Shown: one piece after another, positions 1,554-11,127 of the stretch
Numbering within the stretch: the stretch's first letter is position 1
Layout of the letters: each line of letters starts with the position of its first letter
Assembly (NCBI GenBank): GCA_011620345.1
Contig: WOZJ01000063.1
Location: 1-20,738, forward strand
Direction of reading: 5' to 3'
Length of the DNA stretch: 20,738 nt
Source: Nitrospirota bacterium
GTDB lineage: Bacteria > UBA2233
The notes under the pieces: model-generated
Databases searched by the model: none
Told to the model about the DNA's origin: nothing
Seen by the model: only the letters and a program-made list of their open reading frames with translations
Program-made: the position numbers and the translations under genes

Positions 1554-2402
1554 ATGTCGCAGGAGGCCGGAGTGTGCAGTCGCCCTAGGGAAGAAAGGCT
1601 GAAAGGCTGCCCTGAGGCCGGTCAAAACCAATTTTTTGCCCTCAACGAAGCGCTGGACCAAGCCGAAGTGCGTCGGATTGCCAACGGCGTGACCGACTTC
1701 CTGAAATCCGGGGGGTTTTCCAACACGTTCGAAGATCAAGCGTTTGAGGCCAAGTTCCGTAACGGGATGGAGCGCTGGCTCGAAAGCCTGCTGGATGACG
1801 ATCTTCCGGAAGAATCCTACGCCCAAGACCGGATCAGGATCGGGCGCTCCTACGTCAAGAGGGGGCTCGCCATGACCATCATCCTCAAATCCTACTCCTA
1901 TATCCGAAACGAGCTGATGCGCCTCCTTGAAGGTTCCCCCGTTTCAATGTTTACCGCCCTCAGTCAAAGGCTCGATGACGACCTAAGCTTGGTTCTCATG
2001 GCCTACGAAAAAGAACAGGTTCGTCTTGCCGAGGAGAGCCTTTCCAGCTACCGGACGATCCAGGAGCTCTCGAGCCCGATCATTGAAGTCTCAAGGCAAA
2101 CGCTGCTCGTTCCGATCGTCGGCGAGATGGACGAGCAGCGCACGGACATCCTAGAGGATAAGCTACTTCAAGAGGTCGCCTCCAAAAAGGCCAAGCAAGT
2201 GCTGATGGAGTTCAGCGGCTGCGAAATTAGGGATACCCACCTGACCAAGCGTCTTTTCGAAGTATGCAGGGCCGTAGAGCTGCTTGGGGCACGCGTCGTG
2301 TTCGTCGGCATTCGCCCCTCTTTGGCGCGTACGCTCGTTTCTATCGGGGCTGACTTCGCCGGCTTTCGTGTCGTAAGGTCGCTAGCCGACACCCGGGCTT
2401 AA
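1554..2402 (+). CDS. RsbR-like sensor: non-haem globin fold plus STAS domain
   Basis: This 282-aa protein has two parts. Residues about 30-165 resemble the protoglobin-like sensor of RsbR stressosome proteins: a helical region with conserved W, Y and IG positions. Where haem-binding relatives have a His in an IGxxHxxxGL context, this protein has IGRSYVKRGL, so haem ligation is unlikely, as in RsbR itself. Residues about 175-280 are a STAS domain (from LLVPIVGEMD through MEFSGCEIRDT to VGIRPSLARTLV). S221, in the SGC turn before the RDT motif, sits where RsbR-type STAS domains carry a kinase-targeted Ser or Thr. RsbS, RsbT and RsbX are not next to it, so the partner kinase must be elsewhere. 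The start is preceded by AGGAG with normal spacing. Involvement in stress signalling is inference from the family. Confidence 0.8.
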   Translation: MSQEAGVCSRPREERLKGCPEAGQNQFFALNEALDQAEVRRIANGVTDFLKSGGFSNTFEDQAFEAKFRNGMERWLESLLDDDLPEESYAQDRIRIGRSYVKRGLAMTIILKSYSYIRNELMRLLEGSPVSMFTALSQRLDDDLSLVLMAYEKEQVRLAEESLSSYRTIQELSSPIIEVSRQTLLVPIVGEMDEQRTDILEDKLLQEVASKKAKQVLMEFSGCEIRDTHLTKRLFEVCRAVELLGARVVFVGIRPSLARTLVSIGADFAGFRVVRSLADTRA

Positions 2403-2715
2403 GAAGGCCCAGAGTCCCAGTCCTCACGGAGCCGATGCCTTAGGAGCTTGCCAGAGGGGTTCCTGGGCAGGCTGCCAACGAACCGCACGTGGGCCGGCAC
2501 GGGGAACCAATATCGCCCGTATGCAACCACCCCCTCGAAGGGCCTCTGCCGTTTCCTTTGGCCTGCCAAAGTAGTCCGCCATGACGACCGGACTACGCAC
2601 GAGAATATCCCCAGCTTGTTCCGGCCCAAGGACGCGGCCGCACGTATCCACGATGGATACCTCCGTAGAAAAGAGCGGCTTTCCAGCCGTAAGGTTCAGC
2701 GTAAGCCAAGAGAGG
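2399..2715 (-). pseudogene. Remnant of an AMP-forming acyl-CoA synthetase (C-terminal part)
   Basis: Three reading frames on the minus strand together give recognisable ANL-superfamily motifs in the right order. First comes GKPLFSTEVSIVD, then GDILVRSPVVMADYFGRP and ETAEALRG (one frame). Next, after a shift in a G run near 2540, is WLHTGDIGSP (second frame), the motif with the ATP-ribose-binding Asp. Last, in a third frame, is VPAHVRFVGSLPRNPSGK, the C-terminal subdomain with the catalytic Lys. About 75-80 codons between TGD and VPAHV are missing compared with intact enzymes, and the large N-terminal domain is absent. The stop overlaps that of the STAS gene tail to tail. It cannot encode a working enzyme. 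It hints at past fatty-acyl or aryl activation here, consistent with the acyl-CoA genes later in the window. Confidence 0.85.
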
Positions 2716-2780
2716 TTTCTTTTCGAGACGATAAGGATCTTTGAAAGCCCGAGCCGCCTTGAGCGCCCGTGCGTTCAAGG

Positions 2781-2809
2781 TTGTACGCTCGAGGGATCTT
2801 CGCTAAACT
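2781..2809 (+). promoter_or_regulatory. Predicted sigma70-type promoter of ccdA
   Basis: TTGTAC (2781-2786) and TAAACT (2804-2809) are separated by 17 bp and lie about 56 bp before the ccdA start. The spacing is ideal and each box has a few mismatches. A strong ribosome-binding site (GGAAGGAGG) follows just before the ATG at 2866. Confidence 0.45.
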
Positions 2810-2865
2810 AAAAAAACTGCTTTCTTTGGCCTTTTCGTCTTGTATGACCTTGGAAGGAGGCCGGA

Positions 2866-3606
2866 ATGGTTTCGTTTTCACTCGTAAACCTGCTCGTTGC
2901 GTTCGGGGCCGGGGTGCTCTCGTTCCTATCGCCCTGCGTCCTGCCGCTCGTTCCAGCGCACCTTTCGTTTGTCGGCGGGTTTGCGGGTAAGGACCTCGAA
3001 CAGGCCTACGGGGCCGACCCGAAGGCATTCAGGGGGCGCATCTTTGTTCGCTCCCTTATGTTCGTTTTGGGGTTTACGCTCGTGTTCCTCCTTTTGGGGC
3101 TCGTCGTCGTCGGGCTCTTGGGGCCGATCGGCCGCTATAAGGGCTGGTTCGAGCGTGCGGCCGGCGTGCTGATTTTGATCCTTGGCACGCATCTTTTAGG
3201 GCTCATCCGGCTCCCGTTTCTTTCGCGCGACGTCCGCTACCATGGGGCCATCCAGGGCTCGGGCTCACTCGTTGCGTTCCTTACGGGCGCGGCGTTCGGG
3301 TTTGGCTGGACGCCGTGCGTAGGGCCTATTTTGGCGGGCATTCTCGCGCTCGCAACGTTCCAGCATACGTTCTGGCAAGGGTTTTCCCTTTTGATCGCCT
3401 ACAGCTTAGGGCTCGCGCTTCCGTTCTTCTTGGCCGGCGTGTTCGTCCCGCAGTTCTTTTCCTTATTTAAGGGGCTTCGCTCGAAAACGCTCGTGTTCGA
3501 GAAGGTGTCGGGCGTGCTGCTTATCGGTCTTGGCATCGTGCTCGTTCTTGGCAAGATGGGAACAATCTCGAGCTATCTGGTCGAAATCGGCCTTCCCACA
3601 ATCTAG
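2866..3606 (+). CDS. ccdA: CcdA/DsbD-type thiol-disulfide transporter for cytochrome c biogenesis
   Basis: This 246-aa inner-membrane protein has six predicted hydrophobic segments and the two hallmark Cys-Pro motifs of the CcdA family: SPCVLPLVP (C24) in the first helix and GWTPCVGP (C151) in the fourth. CcdA passes electrons from cytoplasmic thioredoxin across the membrane to periplasmic thiol carriers that keep apocytochrome c haem-binding cysteines reduced. The length matches stand-alone CcdA rather than full DsbD. The ribosome-binding site GGAAGGAGG is close to consensus. The gene is alone on its strand; no ResA-like thioredoxin or haem lyase adjoins it. A c-type cytochrome gene at the far end of the window would be one possible client, but no link can be shown. 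The stop overlaps the convergent purN stop. Confidence 0.92.
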   Translation: MVSFSLVNLLVAFGAGVLSFLSPCVLPLVPAHLSFVGGFAGKDLEQAYGADPKAFRGRIFVRSLMFVLGFTLVFLLLGLVVVGLLGPIGRYKGWFERAAGVLILILGTHLLGLIRLPFLSRDVRYHGAIQGSGSLVAFLTGAAFGFGWTPCVGPILAGILALATFQHTFWQGFSLLIAYSLGLALPFFLAGVFVPQFFSLFKGLRSKTLVFEKVSGVLLIGLGIVLVLGKMGTISSYLVEIGLPTI

Positions 3607-4265
3607 CCTGCCAGGCCAGGCCACCAAAACCCTTCGGGCGGAAGGCCCTTAAGCGCGTCCCCGCCCTTCAAGGTAACCCGCCTCCCTTCGAGCTCGAGCA
3701 GGCCTTTGGCGAACCAATCGAGCGCGAGCGGATAGATCTCATGTTCTTTTTGGAGAATCCTGCTGGAAAGCGCCTCTTCCGTGTCATCCTCGAGCACGGG
3801 GACAGCGGCCTGGATGATCGTTGGGCCGGAATCCACCCCCTCGTCCACGAAATGCACCGTACAGCCCGATACCTTAACGCCGTATGCAAGCGCCTGCGCT
3901 TGTGGCTTCAGCCCAGGAAATGCGGGCAAAAGGCTCGGATGGATGTTGAGGATCCGGTTCGGGCAGGCATTGAGAAGCGTAGGGCCCACGATTTGCATGA
4001 ACCCCGCCAAGCATACCCCATCGATCCGCCAGGCTCTAAGAAGCTCTACCATACGGTGTTCTTGTTCGGCTTTGGAGGGGAAATCCGCCCGGGCAACGAC
4101 TTCCGTGGCGACCCCTAAGTTTTTGGCCTTTTCAAGCCCCGGTGCGCTCTTGTCGTTCGAGACGACGAGCGCTACCTTGGCCTCGGCCCGCCCTTCTTTG
4201 CAGGCCTGCACGAGCGCGACCATGTTGCTTCCGCGCCCAGACAGGAACACGGCAACCCGCTTCAT
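3603..4265 (-). CDS. purN: Phosphoribosylglycinamide formyltransferase (GAR transformylase)
   Basis: This 220-aa cytosolic enzyme transfers a formyl group from 10-formyltetrahydrofolate to GAR, step 3 of purine synthesis. The phosphate-binding loop SGRGSN is at residues 9-14. The catalytic triad is present: N107 and H109 in NIHPSLLP, and D145 in DEGVDSGPTI. These sit one residue from the E. coli positions (106, 108, 144). The start codon overlaps the purM stop in an ATGA arrangement, so the two are translationally coupled. The stop shares the self-complementary CTAG (3603-3606) with the stop of convergent ccdA, leaving no room for a terminator. Confidence 0.96.
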   Translation of the reverse strand: MKRVAVFLSGRGSNMVALVQACKEGRAEAKVALVVSNDKSAPGLEKAKNLGVATEVVARADFPSKAEQEHRMVELLRAWRIDGVCLAGFMQIVGPTLLNACPNRILNIHPSLLPAFPGLKPQAQALAYGVKVSGCTVHFVDEGVDSGPTIIQAAVPVLEDDTEEALSSRILQKEHEIYPLALDWFAKGLLELEGRRVTLKGGDALKGLPPEGFWWPGLAG

Positions 4266-5317
4266 GCAAGCTTGCCCTCGTAGCGAATATGGGGCCCTTG
4301 GGGGTAGCGCTCCGCCAGCCGTCCGATCACGCTTGGCGTTTCACCGGCCTGGCCAAGCAGCGCCATCGCCTCTTCAAGCCTTGAAGGGCTTACGGCTACG
4401 ACGAACCCCACTCCCATGTTGAACGTCCCAAAGGCGTCTTCTTCTTGGATCTGGCCTTTTTCCATCAGCCAGCGAAACAACGGTGGAACGGAAAGCGAGC
4501 CCAGCTCCACCACGGCCTGTACGTTGTTGGCCAGCATCCTTGGGACGTTTTCCGTGATTCCCCCACCCGTGATATGCGCCATCCCCTTGGGAATCCCCGC
4601 CGAAACAAGCCTTTGGACTGCATCCACGTAGATCTTTGTCGGCGCAAGGAGAACCTCTGCAAGAGGCTTGTTTTCAAGCTCGGGGAGTCTATCCCTTATG
4701 CCATAGTGGTTTTGCTCGAAAAGAACCCTCCTTACGAGCGTGAAGGCGTTGCTGTGAAGCCCGCTGGATGCAAGCCCCACGAGCACATCGCCCGGCGCGG
4801 GGTTGTCCGTCGTGATGAGTGCGCGCTTGGGAACGCTACCTATCCCAAACCCCGCAAACTCGAACAGGCCATCTTGATACATTCCCGGCATCTGGGCGGT
4901 CTCTCCGCCCACAAGGTCCATCCGTGCGGCTTCCAAGCCCTGGGCCAGCCCCTTTGTCAGCTCATCTAGGGTGTTTTCCTCGAGCGAAGAGAACGCAAGG
5001 TAGTCGAGGAAAAAAAGAGGCTTGGCCCCCGTCGTGATCAGGTCGTTGACGACCATCGCGACAAGGTCGACCCCTAAGCCCTGGTAAGCGCCGGCCATCC
5101 TGGCAACGAGGATCTTTGTGCCGATGCCGTCGCTCGAGGCAACGAGGAATGCCCCCTCTTCCATCCCGAGCACCGCCGCAAACCCTCCCATTCCGTGGCG
5201 AACCTTGTCCGCATGCAATATCTTCGTGCGAAACCGGAGCTTTTCGATGAACCTCTTGGCAACGTTACGGTCAACTCCCGCGGCCCGGTAAGCGTTCATG
5301 GCTCTCCTTTGCTGCAT
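4262..5317 (-). CDS. purM: Phosphoribosylformylglycinamidine cyclo-ligase (AIR synthetase)
   Basis: This 351-aa enzyme catalyses ATP-dependent ring closure of FGAM to AIR in purine synthesis. Family motifs include the ATP-binding SSDGIGTK segment near residue 62, the GGETAQMPGMY segment, SSGLHSN, and HITGGGITEN. The length is normal. The annotated start has AGGAGG 11 nt upstream. A second ATG six codons in (5299), with its own GGAG, matches the usual N-terminus (AYRAAGVD) equally well, so the start is uncertain by six residues. It is the first gene of a coupled purM-purN pair, as in many proteobacteria. Divergent transcription from 5441 suggests that regulation is separate from that of the neighbours. 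Confidence 0.96.
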   Translation of the reverse strand: MQQRRAMNAYRAAGVDRNVAKRFIEKLRFRTKILHADKVRHGMGGFAAVLGMEEGAFLVASSDGIGTKILVARMAGAYQGLGVDLVAMVVNDLITTGAKPLFFLDYLAFSSLEENTLDELTKGLAQGLEAARMDLVGGETAQMPGMYQDGLFEFAGFGIGSVPKRALITTDNPAPGDVLVGLASSGLHSNAFTLVRRVLFEQNHYGIRDRLPELENKPLAEVLLAPTKIYVDAVQRLVSAGIPKGMAHITGGGITENVPRMLANNVQAVVELGSLSVPPLFRWLMEKGQIQEEDAFGTFNMGVGFVVAVSPSRLEEAMALLGQAGETPSVIGRLAERYPQGPHIRYEGKLA

Positions 5318-5803: not shown

Positions 5804-6318
5804 CCGAGATGAGCCCCCCCCTCAAGGCGGCTCCTTCGCCAAAAAAGGCGAGCCCGGCCTCGTTCAACCAAAGAAAGAGCGCCCGGGACGAGCTTGTGTA
5901 TTTTCGGATGGTCAGAGTCCTGCACGGGATCTACAACCGCCTTCAGCGCGTGCTCGTCCAGGCCGGCGTAACGGCCCCCCAGTTCGAAGTTATCTCGCTG
6001 CTCGTGCGGATGAACGACGCCAAGCTCAAAGAAATAGGCAAAAGGCTGCTGATCACCGGAGGAAACGTTACGGGCATCATGGACAGGCTAGAAAAAATTG
6101 GCCTTGTCCTTCGAGTGCGCGATACGGACGACAGGCGGATCATCAAGGCCAAGCTTACCCAAAAGGGGCTAGAAACCTTCTACAACGCGGATGCTCTCTA
6201 TAAAATGGAGCTCAAGGAGGTTTTTGGGGCCTTGAACAAGCAAGAAAAACGAATCTTGGCCGGCCTCCTTCGGAGGACTGAGCTTCGGGCGAGGCGCAGG
6301 GCTGCGTCCTCCCTTTGA
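5800..6318 (+). CDS. MarR-family transcriptional regulator
   Basis: This 172-aa protein has a MarR-type winged helix-turn-helix at residues about 60-135. PQFEVISLLVRMNDAKLKEI gives helices 2-3. GGNVTGIMDRLEKIGLV is the recognition helix. The wing RDTDDRR is the conserved DxRxxR-type motif. LTQKGLE is the characteristic segment after the wing. A basic, low-complexity N-terminal tail of about 30 residues precedes the domain, and the C-terminus is Arg-rich. MarR proteins bind DNA as dimers and often respond to small aromatic ligands or oxidation. The GTG start overlaps the stop of the upstream 120-aa gene; an ATG three codons later (5809) is an alternative. Its targets are unknown. Confidence 0.9.
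   Translation: MTEMSPPLKAAPSPKKASPASFNQRKSARDELVYFRMVRVLHGIYNRLQRVLVQAGVTAPQFEVISLLVRMNDAKLKEIGKRLLITGGNVTGIMDRLEKIGLVLRVRDTDDRRIIKAKLTQKGLETFYNADALYKMELKEVFGALNKQEKRILAGLLRRTELRARRRAASSL
6272..6312 (+). terminator. Inverted repeat at the end of the marR gene, possible terminator
   Basis: GGAGGAC (6272-6278) pairs with GTCCTCC (6306-6312). An inner hairpin (GAGGCGCA with TGCGTCCTC, one bulge) is also possible. A run of six T occurs at 6335-6340, too far away for a classical terminator. It lies over the last codons of marR. Confidence 0.3.
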
Positions 6319-6451
6319 TCCCCTAAAAAGTCGGTTTTTTCATCCTTCGCTCCCTTCCGTGCCAAACGATCTCAAGCTTCCGCTTGCAAAAACCTTTCTA
6401 GCGCGAAAATGCGAGGGGATTCACCCTTTTAGGCCATCCTGCGATGAGTTT

Positions 6452-6460
6452 TGCTATAAT
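6452..6460 (+). promoter_or_regulatory. Extended -10 promoter of the ftsE-like operon
   Basis: TGC-TATAAT is a perfect extended -10. No matching -35 is seen at 6432-6437. Transcription would begin near 6467, which fits translation from the ATG at 6503 better than from the GTG at 6470. Confidence 0.6.
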
Positions 6461-6502
6461 CAAGCCTAGGTGTTCGAAAATACCAAGGCGGCTTCAGGGG
6501 CG

Positions 6503-7192
6503 ATGGCTTTTGTGCAAACGAGCGTCTATCACGATTGTCTCGCATTCCTTCGTGTCTCCGGCTCAAAGGCGGGGGGACGGATGGCTGCCGAGGCGTCTTT
6601 TTCCCTCCCAAAGGGCGGAATCCTAGGCGTTTTTGGCGCTCCAGGAACTGGCAAGAGCACGCTCACTAGGCTCGCTGCCCTAAGGGAGATGCCCTCCGAT
6701 GGGTACATCGTGTGCTTTGGCCGGAACGTGCTCAAGTGCCAGTTGGCACAGCTCCAGCAGATGCGCCTTAGGATAGGAGCGGTGTTGGAAGGAAGCAGGC
6801 TAATCGAAGAGGCCAGCGTGGCGTTCAACCTCAAGTGCCTTGCCCCTTTGGCCGAGGAGTGCTCTAAGGGGACCCTTAAGGAGCGCACCGAAGCACTTTT
6901 AGAGCTTTTGGAATGCCCCGGCAGTTTGCAAGCTTTCCTGAAATCGCGGGTAAGCATCCTGCCGGAGAGCTTAAAAAGGAGGGTGCTGTTCATGAGGGAG
7001 TGCCTTCTTGCGCCGGAGCTCCTCGTCCTCGATTGTCCGTTCGAGTTGCTCGGACATCGCCTTGGCCAACGCTTCCTCTACGGCGTTCAAGGGGTGCTTC
7101 AGAAGACAGCGGGCATCCTCTTGACCGCCTCGAGTCCGGAAACGGCCAGGGCGCTGCAAGACCGCTTCCCCTGGGTCAGGCTCGAAGCGTAG
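6503..7192 (+). CDS. FtsE-like ABC ATPase with degenerate catalytic motifs
   Basis: This is a 229-aa ABC-type protein; a GTG at 6470 would add 11 residues. The Walker A motif GAPGTGKST is intact about 45 residues from the start, as in FtsE. Later motifs are degenerate. The ABC signature LSGGE is replaced by LPESL before KRRVLF. Walker B reads LLVLDCP instead of LLLADEP, so the catalytic Glu is Cys. The switch His (ATHD) is replaced by TASSP. The protein may bind ATP but should hydrolyse it poorly or not at all. It is identified as FtsE-like mainly from its neighbours: an FtsX-like permease 3 bp downstream, then a LytM-like protein and CtpA, an order known in deltaproteobacteria. In the known system FtsEX uses ATP hydrolysis to activate septal cell-wall amidases through EnvC. 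The identity is likely; the activity is doubtful. Confidence 0.8.
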   Translation: MAFVQTSVYHDCLAFLRVSGSKAGGRMAAEASFSLPKGGILGVFGAPGTGKSTLTRLAALREMPSDGYIVCFGRNVLKCQLAQLQQMRLRIGAVLEGSRLIEEASVAFNLKCLAPLAEECSKGTLKERTEALLELLECPGSLQAFLKSRVSILPESLKRRVLFMRECLLAPELLVLDCPFELLGHRLGQRFLYGVQGVLQKTAGILLTASSPETARALQDRFPWVRLEA

Positions 7193-7195
7193 ACG

Positions 7196-8014
7196 ATGGA
7201 AAGGCTCCAAGGAACCATATTCTGGGCTCGCTCTCTGGGCTGTCTTTGGTGGGCTATCGCCAAGGATACCTCAGACACCCCGAGATTTTTGGGGCGGGTA
7301 ATCCTCGTCTTTTCCATGCTATGGGGGGTGCTCCTCATCGGGGAGCCGATGGGCTTCTGGATCATCCAGCCAAAAACGCTTGCCTGGGTCTTGGCGGACC
7401 CAGGCATGGCCTCCGACATGCAAACCCTCACCGGTCGCCTTGCCAACCTCCAAAAACGCCGCAAAGACCTGGCCCTCACTCCGGAACGCTTGCCCAAACA
7501 TCCAGAAGCAAGAGTTTGGAGGCTTACGGTGCGAACCGTCCTTCAGCCCAATGGGCGCGTGGCTCTCGAACGTCCGCTGCTTGAAGGACTGCAAGGGGTA
7601 CGGGTTCTCTGGCAAGAACCTGTCCCGCTTTTGGGGTTCGACGACTCAACGGCCGCCAAGCGTTTCCTAGCCGTTGCGTTTGCTTGGGTTGCTTCGCTCG
7701 GGTTCCTATACGGAATATTGCTCGCCTCCGGGCTCGAGCGAACCCGCCCCCTCTGGAGCGTGTGGTTTTGGCATGGGCTTGAGCCTTCCAGGCTAAAAAT
7801 CCTCATGGGCGGGCATCTTGTAGCTACGGGGTTGCGCGATGGCCTACTGGCGGGCGTGGCAAGCGCTTGGCTTGCCTTTTGGTTCAAGCTCGTGGCCCTC
7901 CGGGACTTTCTCGTCGTAGGGGGCGCTTGGATGGTGCTTGTCGTCGGCCTTAGCGGGTTGATTCTTGTAAAGCGTTTTATGAGGAAAATCCTTGAAGATT
8001 CTTGTTCGGCTTAG
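7196..8014 (+). CDS. FtsX-like inner-membrane permease
   Basis: This 272-aa protein has the FtsX topology. A cytoplasmic N-terminus leads to a first membrane helix at about residues 31-55. A periplasmic loop of roughly 95 residues follows, containing a charged helical stretch (LTGRLANLQKRRKD). Three more hydrophobic segments lie at about 158-182, 212-232 and 239-258, and the tail is basic. FtsX carries signals across the membrane from FtsE to a periplasmic LytM activator. Sequence similarity is weak by eye, and the call rests on topology and order. The start is 3 bp after the ftsE-like stop and no strong ribosome-binding site is visible, which suggests coupling. The 3' end overlaps the next gene by 23 bp. 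Confidence 0.7.
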   Translation: MERLQGTIFWARSLGCLWWAIAKDTSDTPRFLGRVILVFSMLWGVLLIGEPMGFWIIQPKTLAWVLADPGMASDMQTLTGRLANLQKRRKDLALTPERLPKHPEARVWRLTVRTVLQPNGRVALERPLLEGLQGVRVLWQEPVPLLGFDDSTAAKRFLAVAFAWVASLGFLYGILLASGLERTRPLWSVWFWHGLEPSRLKILMGGHLVATGLRDGLLAGVASAWLAFWFKLVALRDFLVVGGAWMVLVVGLSGLILVKRFMRKILEDSCSA

Positions 8015-8528
8015 GGCTCTTTCCTTACCGATTGCCGCGCTCATTCTTGCGACTTGTGCTGGCTTGGCATGGCTTCGAGGCGCTGTACCGTCCCTACCCT
8101 TGCAAGCCTTCCATCGCGGGCATGTCCAAATGCGTACGATGCCCCAAAGCCACCCTCAAGAGCTCACGGAAGCTTGGCTAGCGCTCCAGCGAGAGGCGAA
8201 AGAGGCGCTGGACATCGGGCTTCCATCCGAGCCGGCAGAACCTCCCAAGCCGCTGTGGGGTGGTGTTATAATAAACGCTGAGAATCCTTTGGTGCTCGCC
8301 GGAGCGTCTGGAAGGCCGATCTACATAGGGTTCGTGAACGGCCTTGGTTATGTCGTCGTACTGGACCACGGAAACAGGACATACACGATTTATGGCCTCC
8401 TCAAAGAAGTGTTGATCCACAACCTAGAGCGCGTCGCGAAGGGCCAGGCGATAGGGCTTGCCCACACGGAGCCTGGAAGGCGCCTCTATGCCGCATATTT
8501 TGCCGTGCAAAAAGAGACAACGCGCTGA
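7992..8528 (+). CDS. EnvC/LytM-like periplasmic protein, non-catalytic M23 fold
   Basis: This 178-aa protein begins at TTG (7992) with GAGG upstream; no ATG fits. Residues about 10-28 form a hydrophobic signal or anchor helix. Residues about 85-175 resemble the degenerate LytM/M23 domain of EnvC: GGVIINAENP, then GRPIYIGFVNGLGYVVVLDHG, TYTIYGLL, VAKGQAIGLA and LYAAYFAVQ. The DHG turn is kept. The YGH histidine of the M23 metal-binding HxH motif is replaced (YGLL), and the second His is missing too, so it should not cleave peptidoglycan. EnvC and NlpD are similarly inactive and work as amidase activators. The long EnvC coiled coil is reduced to about 30 residues (PQELTEAWLALQREAKEAL). It overlaps ftsX by 23 bp. 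The role as an FtsEX partner is inferred. Confidence 0.72.
   Translation: MKILVRLRALSLPIAALILATCAGLAWLRGAVPSLPLQAFHRGHVQMRTMPQSHPQELTEAWLALQREAKEALDIGLPSEPAEPPKPLWGGVIINAENPLVLAGASGRPIYIGFVNGLGYVVVLDHGNRTYTIYGLLKEVLIHNLERVAKGQAIGLAHTEPGRRLYAAYFAVQKETTR
8264..8272 (+). promoter_or_regulatory. Intragenic extended -10, possible internal promoter for ctpA
   Basis: TGT-TATAAT lies inside the LytM-like gene, about 320 bp before the ctpA start. It matches the extended -10 form used elsewhere in the window. No -35 is evident. It could give ctpA and downstream genes extra expression. Confidence 0.3.
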
Positions 8529-8592
8529 AAACCCAAGCCCTGGAGCCAAGCCCCCTGTATCCAAACCCACACCAGAAAGGAGTTTTGCCTTT

Positions 8593-9927
8593 ATGAGTGC
8601 AACGCCAAAGCAACGTCGCAAGTGGATTTTCATTCTAAGCGCGTTGAGCTGCCTAGCGGCGGTCTTTTACGGCCTGGATGGCCTGGCATTAAAGCAAGAT
8701 CAAGAATCCTCAACCTTCGGGCAGTTCAAGCTTTTCACGGAGGTCATGTCCGTAGTCAGGGAAAACTACGTCCAGAACCTCGAAACCGAACAGCTGATTC
8801 AAGGCGCGATGAAGGGGATGATCAGTCAGCTCGACCCGCACTCGTCCGTCTTGACGCCCGAGGAGTTCAAAGAGATGCAGATCGAAACGAGCGGGTCGTT
8901 TGCAGGCGTTGGGATGGTCATCACACTCAAGGACGGTCTTCTTACCGTTGTTTCGCCCATAGAAGACTCGCCCGCCCAAGCAGCAGGCATACGGTCCGGC
9001 GATGTAATCTTGAAGATCGACGGGGCCGCGACGCAGGGAATGACGACAGAAGAGGCGGCAAAACGTCTTAGGGGACCCAAAGGTACCAAGGTCAAGCTCT
9101 TGGTCCTATCAGACGGCACGCAAGAACCCAGAGAGGTCGGGTTGGTACGGGACGTCATCCGCGTCAAGAGCGTAAAGACGAGCATGCTCGCCCCGGGCTA
9201 CGGGTACGCGCGCGTTTCGCAATTCCAGGAAAACACGTCCAAGGAGCTTGCCAGGCAAGTTGCGCTTCTTCAAAAGCAAACCCCGCTTCGCGGGCTCATA
9301 CTCGACCTTAGGAATAACCCCGGAGGGCTACTGGACCAGGCCGTTACAGTGTCGGATTTCTTCCTCAAGAAAGGCCTGATCGTCTACACCAAAGGCCGAA
9401 GGGCCGACCAGGAACTTAGCTTCAGAGCCAAAAACGACGGCAATGAACCAACCTGCCCGCTTGTCGTGCTTGTCAACGCCGGCTCGGCATCGGCCTCCGA
9501 GATCGTGGCAGGGGCGCTCCAAGATCAGCGCCGCGCCGTTGTTTTGGGATCGCAGACGTTTGGCAAAGGCAGCGTTCAGTCGGTTTTTCCTCTGGACGAG
9601 GGGTGGGCCTTAAGGCTCACGACGGCGCTATACTACACGCCCAAGGGCCGCTCCATCCAGGCGACAGGGATCGTCCCGGACATCACGGTCGCCGAGGGCG
9701 GGGAAACGGACTTCAAGCGGCTAAAAAAAGAGCCCCTTACGTTTAGGGAGCGCGACTTAGAGCGGCATTTTGAAAATGGAAGCGAGAACAAAAAAGAAGA
9801 CGTACCAAAACCTGTTCTGAATGGGCCTGTCGATTTGTTGACAACAGACCCTCAAGTAGAACGCGCCTACCAAATCCTAAAGGCGCTCGAGGCGCTCGAG
9901 GCCCCTCTGCAACAGAAGAAAGGATAA
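8593..9927 (+). CDS. ctpA: C-terminal processing protease CtpA (S41A family)
   Basis: This 444-aa periplasmic serine protease is anchored by an N-terminal hydrophobic segment (about residues 11-33). Next come a helical cap, a PDZ domain (about 98-185, with GSFAGVGMVI and AGIRSGDVILKIDG) and the S41 catalytic core. The Ser/Lys dyad is present: S300 in NAGSASASEI and K325 in TFGKGSVQS, spaced 25 residues as in E. coli Prc. LRNNPGG is also conserved. CtpA enzymes trim periplasmic proteins, including cell-wall hydrolases. The ATG at 8593 has AGAAAGGAG upstream and places the signal anchor at the N-terminus. The frame stays open upstream to 8458, but that would add a hydrophilic stretch overlapping the LytM-like gene. 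It lies 64 bp after that gene. Confidence 0.95.
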   Translation: MSATPKQRRKWIFILSALSCLAAVFYGLDGLALKQDQESSTFGQFKLFTEVMSVVRENYVQNLETEQLIQGAMKGMISQLDPHSSVLTPEEFKEMQIETSGSFAGVGMVITLKDGLLTVVSPIEDSPAQAAGIRSGDVILKIDGAATQGMTTEEAAKRLRGPKGTKVKLLVLSDGTQEPREVGLVRDVIRVKSVKTSMLAPGYGYARVSQFQENTSKELARQVALLQKQTPLRGLILDLRNNPGGLLDQAVTVSDFFLKKGLIVYTKGRRADQELSFRAKNDGNEPTCPLVVLVNAGSASASEIVAGALQDQRRAVVLGSQTFGKGSVQSVFPLDEGWALRLTTALYYTPKGRSIQATGIVPDITVAEGGETDFKRLKKEPLTFRERDLERHFENGSENKKEDVPKPVLNGPVDLLTTDPQVERAYQILKALEALEAPLQQKKG

Positions 9928-9939
9928 ATAGGAAGAGGC

Positions 9940-11127
9940 ATGATGGACTTGCTCCATGGAATCACCGTCTTGGATTTAACGAGGCTCTTACCGGGGAACT
10001 TTTGCACGCTGTGCTTGGCGGACTTGGGCGCGGAAGTGATCAAAGTCGAAGACCCCGTGCGAGGGGACTACATTCGCTGGATGCCGCCGTTTTTTGGCGA
10101 GGAGAGCGCCTACCATCTGCTCGTGAACCGAAGCAAGAAGAGCGTTTGCTTGGACTTAAAACAACCTAAGGCCAAGGAGTCCTTCCTTAAGTGCCTCGAG
10201 CGTGCGGACGTGCTCGTCGAAAGCTTCAGGCCCGGCATAATGGCAAAACTAGGCTTGGACTACGGTACGCTCAAGGGCCTTTTCCCTAGGCTTGTCTACT
10301 GCGCCATCACGGGCTACGGGCAAGACGGCCCATTTCGAGACCGGGCGGGCCATGATTTGAACTACATCGGGTTTGCCGGGCTGCTTTCGACGACGAAGGA
10401 TGGGGCCGGCAGGCCTGTCATTCCTGGCATTCAGGCGGCCGATTTGTTCGGAGGGGGGCTCATGGCCGCCCTTGGGATCGTCTCCGCCCTCATCCGGTGC
10501 CAAAGGACGGGGGCGGGGGCATTTTTGGATATCAGCATGACGGACGGGGCCGCCTTCTCCCAGCCCGTCGCCCTTGCAGAGCCAATGTTTGAACAATCCC
10601 AAGAGGGGTCAACAATCAAGGTCTTGACGGGCGGGGTCGTGTGCTACAACGTCTACGAGACGTTGGACGACAGGTTCGTAACGCTCGGCGCGATCGAGGA
10701 GAAGTTCTGGCAGAGCTTCGTTGAGGCCGTAGGCAAGCCAGAGTGGAAGTCCCGCCAGTTCGACGCGGCGGATTCCTCCGACCAGAGCTCTGTCTACGGT
10801 GATCTCTGCGTTCTTTTCCGGCAAAAATCCATGCAGGAATGGGAAGCGATGCTTTCTAAGGTCGATACCTGCTTCGGCGTCGTCCAGACGCACGCGGAGG
10901 TGCTTCGCCACCCGCTCTTTCAGGCCCGGGGGTTATTTGGAGAGATGAGCGATCCTGAGCTTGGGACGATCCCGCAGGTTATGAGCCCGATCAAGCTAGA
11001 CGGCGCCCCGTTCCAGCCAAAGGCAAGGGCGCCAAAGTTCGGCGAGCATACGTTCGAGGTCCTTACAAGCTACGGGGTCGATTCCGCCACGCTCGAGGCA
11101 CTAAAACGCTCGGGCGCGGCCCGCTAA
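9940..11127 (+). CDS. Alpha-methylacyl-CoA racemase-like / family III CoA-transferase
   Basis: This 395-aa protein belongs to the CaiB/BaiF (family III) fold. It starts with the usual GITVLDLTRLLPGNFCT, followed by DLGAEVIKVE and RSKKSVCLDLK. Three residues match the catalytic set of alpha-methylacyl-CoA racemases: H138 in RAGHDLNYIG, D168 in AADLFGGG and E253 in GAIEEKFW. D168 is also the acyl-anhydride Asp of the CoA-transferases. The GHDxNY segment and GAIE favour racemase over formyl-CoA transferase. It probably epimerises 2-methyl-branched acyl-CoAs so that beta-oxidation can proceed, which would fit the acyl-CoA dehydrogenases at 12820-15121. GGAAGAGG precedes two adjacent ATGs (9940 and 9943). 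It sits 12 bp after ctpA and 4 bp before rnhC, so it is co-transcribed with unrelated functions. Confidence 0.85.
   Translation: MMDLLHGITVLDLTRLLPGNFCTLCLADLGAEVIKVEDPVRGDYIRWMPPFFGEESAYHLLVNRSKKSVCLDLKQPKAKESFLKCLERADVLVESFRPGIMAKLGLDYGTLKGLFPRLVYCAITGYGQDGPFRDRAGHDLNYIGFAGLLSTTKDGAGRPVIPGIQAADLFGGGLMAALGIVSALIRCQRTGAGAFLDISMTDGAAFSQPVALAEPMFEQSQEGSTIKVLTGGVVCYNVYETLDDRFVTLGAIEEKFWQSFVEAVGKPEWKSRQFDAADSSDQSSVYGDLCVLFRQKSMQEWEAMLSKVDTCFGVVQTHAEVLRHPLFQARGLFGEMSDPELGTIPQVMSPIKLDGAPFQPKARAPKFGEHTFEVLTSYGVDSATLEALKRSGAAR

Follow-up and report, generated by a model that had tools for sequence, protein, structure and literature searches.

A motif-depleted FtsE relative beside a shortened EnvC-like protein in 'Candidatus Cutipiota': a possible FtsEX-EnvC system without ATP hydrolysis

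FtsEX is regarded as a switch that is powered by ATP and acts on cell-wall amidases. In E. coli, EnvC binds FtsX through its coiled coil, which upon ATP binding moves a restraining arm away from the groove of the LytM domain; an EnvC LytM domain that lacks this arm binds amidases without FtsEX (PMC12505981). The FtsE residues K41, D162 and E163 have been described as highly conserved across bacteria, the ATP-bound, non-hydrolysing E163Q protein of E. coli represents the activating state, and P. aeruginosa, M. tuberculosis and V. cholerae are reported to differ in their need for hydrolysis, binding or scaffolding (PMC11139282). It has also been found in E. coli that ftsEX phenotypes are rescued by an FtsEX dead for hydrolysis, provided that this is unable to block division, and that FtsE D162N blocks septal synthesis (PMC7343993).

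The locus considered here lies in a stretch of 20,738 nucleotides (the window; contig WOZJ01000063.1) from a 1.8 Mb assembly that is 96.8% complete. UBA2233, the name given to its lineage, is a placeholder for the phylum 'Candidatus Cutipiota', whose two known genomes come from soil contaminated with oil and from a tailings pond (PMC11382960). Among 386 genomes searched, the only close relative of the host is Nitrospirae bacterium UBA2233 (assembly DDYN01000057), referred to below as the sister species. A preliminary description had noted an FtsE-like ATPase with an intact Walker A motif and with the signature, catalytic Glu and switch His lost, encoded in an intact operon with FtsX-like and LytM-like partners. 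The features of this region are collected in Table 1.

Table 1. Features of the FtsE-like operon, in window coordinates.
Feature	Position	Strand	Remarks
ABC ATPase-like gene, most probably FtsE-derived	6503..7192	+	229 aa
Walker A, GAPGTGKS	6635..6658	+	GGPGTGKS in sister species
ABC signature position, LPESL	6959..6973	+	Pro154 codon silently changed in sister species
Walker B end, LDCP	7028..7039	+	Cys178 at catalytic Glu position; codon silently changed in sister species
Four-TM membrane protein	7196..8014	+	272 aa; FtsX by position and topology only
EnvC-like LytM protein	7992..8528	+	178 aa; N-terminal anchor, short helix-like stretch, degenerate LytM
S41 carboxy-terminal processing protease, CtpA type	8458..9927	+	Synteny anchor

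Gene order and motifs of the FtsE-like protein

For a comparison of gene order, the DNA upstream of the best CtpA homologue was collected from 40 genomes of other phyla. In 12 of these 40 stretches the protease gene comes directly after ftsE, a gene for a four-TM FtsX and one for an M23-type protein with a coiled coil, with two variants within the 12: at L064 the M23-type protein is fused to FtsX, and at L068 there is a shorter coiled-coil protein without a recognisable LytM domain. The fused frame of L064 (genome G025, positions 1792-4494) is 668 aa long and joins FtsX to the M23 coiled-coil part; the FtsE encoded there reads ISENE at the signature and has ADEP and the His intact. If the four-TM gene is granted the place of ftsX, these four genes recur in the window, tightly packed and in the same order, which bears out the operon that had been described. 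The true start of ctpA is probably downstream of the listed TTG. A search of the operon region (window 6200-10100) for a sigma-70-like promoter returned no match, and terminator-like sites within these limits were twice as numerous as the shuffled mean on both strands, mostly inside genes. Elsewhere in the window, positions 149-1306 encode what appears by eye to be a TnpB-like protein of the IS200/IS605 or IS607 type that carries CxxC zinc-finger pairs.

The FtsE-like frame begins at the ATG at 6503, which is common to both species; the sister species has a stop directly before the N-T-K that follows GTG 6470. Inspection of the motifs agrees with what had been reported for them. Walker A (GAPGTGKST, including Lys51) and the Walker B Asp177 are kept. 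When aligned to the solved FtsE 8i6r, LPESL falls without gaps on LSTGQ, at the LSGGE position, and LDCP falls on ADQP, so that the catalytic Glu is lost, while the switch region reads TASS and is devoid of His. MAFFT drew a four-residue deletion of SGGE at this place; it was discarded, since aligning LSTGQ with LPESL without gaps needs fewer indels. The erosion exceeds the preliminary description, since a motif table that included 18 FtsE proteins from the operons above reveals that the A-loop aromatic residue, the Q-loop Gln (VLEG for VFQD) and the D-loop Asp (ELLG for GNLD) are gone as well. With the A-loop, Q-loop, signature and D-loop residues lost, a closed ATP-sandwich dimer is doubtful, and the case for ATP binding is therefore weaker than had been assumed.

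To which family does such a protein belong? Among the NCBIfam models FtsE (TIGR02673) ranks first with 58.5 bits, followed by NodI with 49.7, and it is the best model for the proteins of both species. The cut-off of this model, 264.85 bits, is not reached, however; the FtsE of L061, taken as a positive control, scores 292 bits. In a search of the PDB, FtsE accounted for the four top-ranking distinct sequences, the best being those of P. aeruginosa and V. cholerae. A better match to some other ABC family, which would have overturned the earlier assignment, was thus not encountered. The protein resembles FtsE (8i6r from P. aeruginosa, 8tzj from V. cholerae, 8hd0 from E. coli) in its best model and solved-structure matches, in its Walker A motif and in the placement of its gene before a membrane partner, an EnvC-type gene and ctpA. 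It differs in being only 20-25% identical to the operon FtsE proteins and in keeping, of all the motifs, only Walker A and the Walker B Asp. By the curated model and the catalytic motifs it is not FtsE; by descent it is most probably derived from FtsE. AlphaFold2 models of this protein and of its four-TM neighbour, based on two-row alignments, had mean pLDDT values of 39-42 (42 for the four-TM protein), too low for the models to be used.

The membrane and LytM partners, and a search for other FtsE genes

By hydropathy, the four-TM protein has membrane segments near residues 31, 153-158, 217 and 240, with a loop of about 100 residues after TM1. It therefore resembles FtsX (PF02687, PF18075) in its four segments, its large first loop, its length of about 270 aa and its position next to the FtsE-like gene. 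It is unlike FtsX in sequence: no match was found to PF02687, PF18075, any FtsX model, a profile of operon FtsX proteins or solved chains, and profile-profile and HMM comparisons with 12-16 operon FtsX sequences gave no signal above block shuffles. The earlier label of FtsX-like thus stands for position and topology and fails for sequence, and on the former grounds we infer that this protein is a diverged FtsX. Residues 169-205 (window 7700-7840) weakly match the WS/DGAT wax ester synthases (E 0.0014, against 0.005 for the sister protein), with 34-35% identity over 47 residues in two genomes. Spanning just 37-47 residues, over a loop and the start of TM3, this match was judged to be probably due to chance.

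The LytM-like gene can be placed more exactly. EnvC is the top NCBIfam match of its product, and the only solved structures that it matches are six EnvC chains. Residues W89, I93 and Y169 match W320, V324 and Y401 of EnvC, which replace zinc ligands (PMC11627006). The protein is therefore like EnvC (NF008644; 4bh5, 6tpi, 8i6o) in its LytM domain and in the replacement of the zinc ligands. It is unlike EnvC in lacking a coiled coil, which is absent from the whole open frame of about 180 aa (178 from the first start), with at most a vestige of the restraining-arm helix in one short helix-like stretch at residues ~56-74. The open frame of the sister species is only 181 aa between stops, and the EnvC-type counterparts encoded by the other operons are generally ~345-430 aa long, with long coiled coils. 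We conclude that the protein is of the EnvC type by its LytM domain and is without the coiled coil that defines EnvC; this loss is new and was missed in the preliminary description.

A search for a second, canonical ftsEX elsewhere in the genome had been proposed as a check. Neither the host nor the sister genome contains another FtsE over the cut-off, the host genome has no match to FtsX_ECD, and its PF02687 matches are all MacB, LolC/E or similar large permeases. The other, better-scoring ATPases are of the LolD, MacB and MlaF types by model or by neighbours. For one of them (on C26) FtsE ranks first, with 187 bits, but it adjoins a 404-aa MacB-like permease. A LolD-type ATPase (L002, G000:C65) adjoins a ClpB-like gene and has no adjacent permease; an equal-scoring counterpart is present in the sister species (L107, G001:C45). 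FtsA and an Amidase_3 protein are present, and both ends of the pathway therefore exist.

Fixation in the sister species and partial erosion in a second phylum

The FtsE-like protein of the sister species is 94% identical and has the same motifs. As that assembly is independent, sequencing error, assembly error and recent decay are ruled out as sources of the substitutions, which are fixed as far as two genomes with a divergence of ~5% can define fixation. In the set of 386 genomes no wider relatives were found beyond the sister species; a match in G172 proved to be an MlaF-type ATPase and one in G395 a MacB/LolD-type ATPase, as judged from motifs and neighbours, and both were set aside.

Thirty-four sites of the gene differ between the two species. 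The resulting 13 amino acid changes may be compared with the 23 expected under neutrality (P ~6e-4), so that the gene is under purifying selection. Residues 127-192, which include the signature, Walker B and D-loop positions, have accumulated six silent changes and no amino acid change, and the silent changes include the codons of Pro154 in LPESL and Cys178 in LDCP. The scarcity of amino acid changes, together with silent changes in the replaced codons themselves, indicates that the replaced residues are maintained, at least over this short divergence. The dN/dS ratio is lowest for ctpA (0.14), followed by the FtsE-like gene (0.22), the four-TM gene (0.36) and the LytM gene (0.43). The four-TM and LytM genes also fall below the neutral expectation (P ~0.03-0.04), and all frames are open in both species.

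A milder form of erosion was found in seven genomes of one family (G072 and G079-G084; loci L098-L104), which have a partly eroded FtsE in an otherwise canonical operon. The switch His is absent and the Q-loop altered in 7/7. The catalytic position reads DEP in three (L102-L104) and DDP, a replacement of Glu by Asp, in the other four (L098-L101), and the signature has drifted to LSTGQ, LSAGE, LSSGE, LSRGQ, LSGSQ or LSGNQ. Two of the FtsX proteins in this family give weak to clear FtsX_ECD matches. These FtsE proteins share with the window protein the order of the operon, the loss of the switch His and of the A-loop aromatic residue, and the altered Q-loop. They are unlike it in that the D-loop Asp and part of the signature are kept and the EnvC-like partner retains its coiled coil, and they are not closely related to it (18-21% identity). 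Judged from sequence, the family forms an apparent natural series that leads from loss of the switch His to replacement of Glu by Asp, in a second, unrelated phylum, and this is new here. Milder signature changes occur in the FtsE of G025 (ISENE) and G032 (LSEGE).

A scaffold reading and its alternatives

We consider it likely, with a probability of roughly 0.6, that the FtsE-derived protein, predicted to be dead for hydrolysis, is a fixed cytoplasmic scaffold of a reduced FtsEX-EnvC-like complex and perhaps a sensor of ATP occupancy. The observations behind this reading are the motif losses, their fixation in both species, the purifying selection, the gene order, the EnvC-type LytM protein without a coiled coil and the absence of another FtsE from the two genomes. 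The presence of Amidase_3 and FtsA also speaks for it, as do the E. coli findings cited above on LytM without its arm, on E163Q and on rescue by hydrolysis-dead FtsEX. The FtsE-like protein would serve as a scaffold without hydrolysing ATP, its P-loop perhaps sensing whether ATP is bound. It would form one complex with the four-TM protein, a putative diverged FtsX, and with the LytM protein. The four-TM protein would hold or recruit the short, membrane-anchored EnvC-like protein, leading to amidase activation at division. As the complex would have no motor that hydrolyses ATP and no coiled-coil lever, activation might be constitutive once it is localised; alternatively, it might be controlled by assembly and degradation instead of an ATP cycle. 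The block of septal synthesis by D162N implies that a dead FtsE can harm an otherwise normal system, so that changes in its partners would be needed, and such changes are what is seen here. The earlier proposal of a non-hydrolysing, ATP-binding regulator or a different FtsEX cycle is supported in part: the losses are fixed, FtsE is the best family and no canonical backup was found; the binding of ATP and the FtsX identity of the four-TM neighbour stay putative. Against the scaffold reading are the lack of detectable FtsX similarity in the four-TM protein, the harm done by D162N in E. coli, the short divergence of the only two genomes, and the A-loop, Q-loop, signature and D-loop losses, which disfavour a closed ATP sandwich.

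Several other explanations must be weighed. FtsEX-EnvC control may have been lost altogether, the three genes being slowly decaying remnants, open by chance, with CtpA alone still working. The joint disappearance of the ABC motifs, the membrane-protein similarity and the coiled coil would fit such a relaxation of the operon, as would the faster evolution of the membrane and LytM genes; nevertheless, the marked deficit of amino acid changes in the ABC gene, the weaker constraint on its two neighbours and the open frames in both species make it unlikely. It is less probable still that the protein belongs to some other, non-FtsE ABC system and lies beside ctpA by chance. The score far under the FtsE cut-off and the membrane partner without a recognised family would be expected in that case, but FtsE leads among the models as well as among the solved structures, and an EnvC-type LytM gene stands in canonical order before ctpA.

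We also regard as improbable a mixed pair of nucleotide-binding domains, in which the FtsE-like protein would have as its partner a canonical ATPase from another locus, such as the LolD-type protein mentioned above, so that of the two sites one would be dead and the other live. Degenerate sites are a usual feature of ABC exporters that are heterodimers (PMC12038006, PMC7756269); in exporters with one such site the catalytic Glu is naturally replaced, as it is here, and both species have a LolD-type ATPase with no permease gene beside it. Those exporters, however, are heterodimers with one live site, whereas FtsE acts as a homodimer, in which both sites would be dead. Moreover, a composite site requires the signature and D-loop of the partner, both of which the FtsE-like protein has lost, and no gene-neighbour link connects it with the LolD-type ATPase. 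Finally, slow hydrolysis could persist through a non-standard arrangement of other acidic residues near the site, as Lys51 and Asp177 are intact. Since the signature, Q-loop, D-loop and switch His have been lost along with the Glu, this is very unlikely.

The scaffold reading can be extended to the statement that FtsEX-EnvC has been rebuilt without ATP hydrolysis, with the phylum's only FtsE a pseudo-ATPase scaffold and the EnvC lever lost, and that a second phylum is independently following. This we hold only tentatively, at somewhat less than even odds. The selected retention of a motif-dead FtsE relative beside a shortened activator suggests that the switch has been rebuilt without ATP hydrolysis. 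A lineage with a fixed dead FtsE and a lost EnvC coiled coil offers a natural experiment on the respective shares of hydrolysis, binding and scaffolding, and the graded series in the second lineage, from loss of the His to replacement of Glu by Asp, offers another on the same question.
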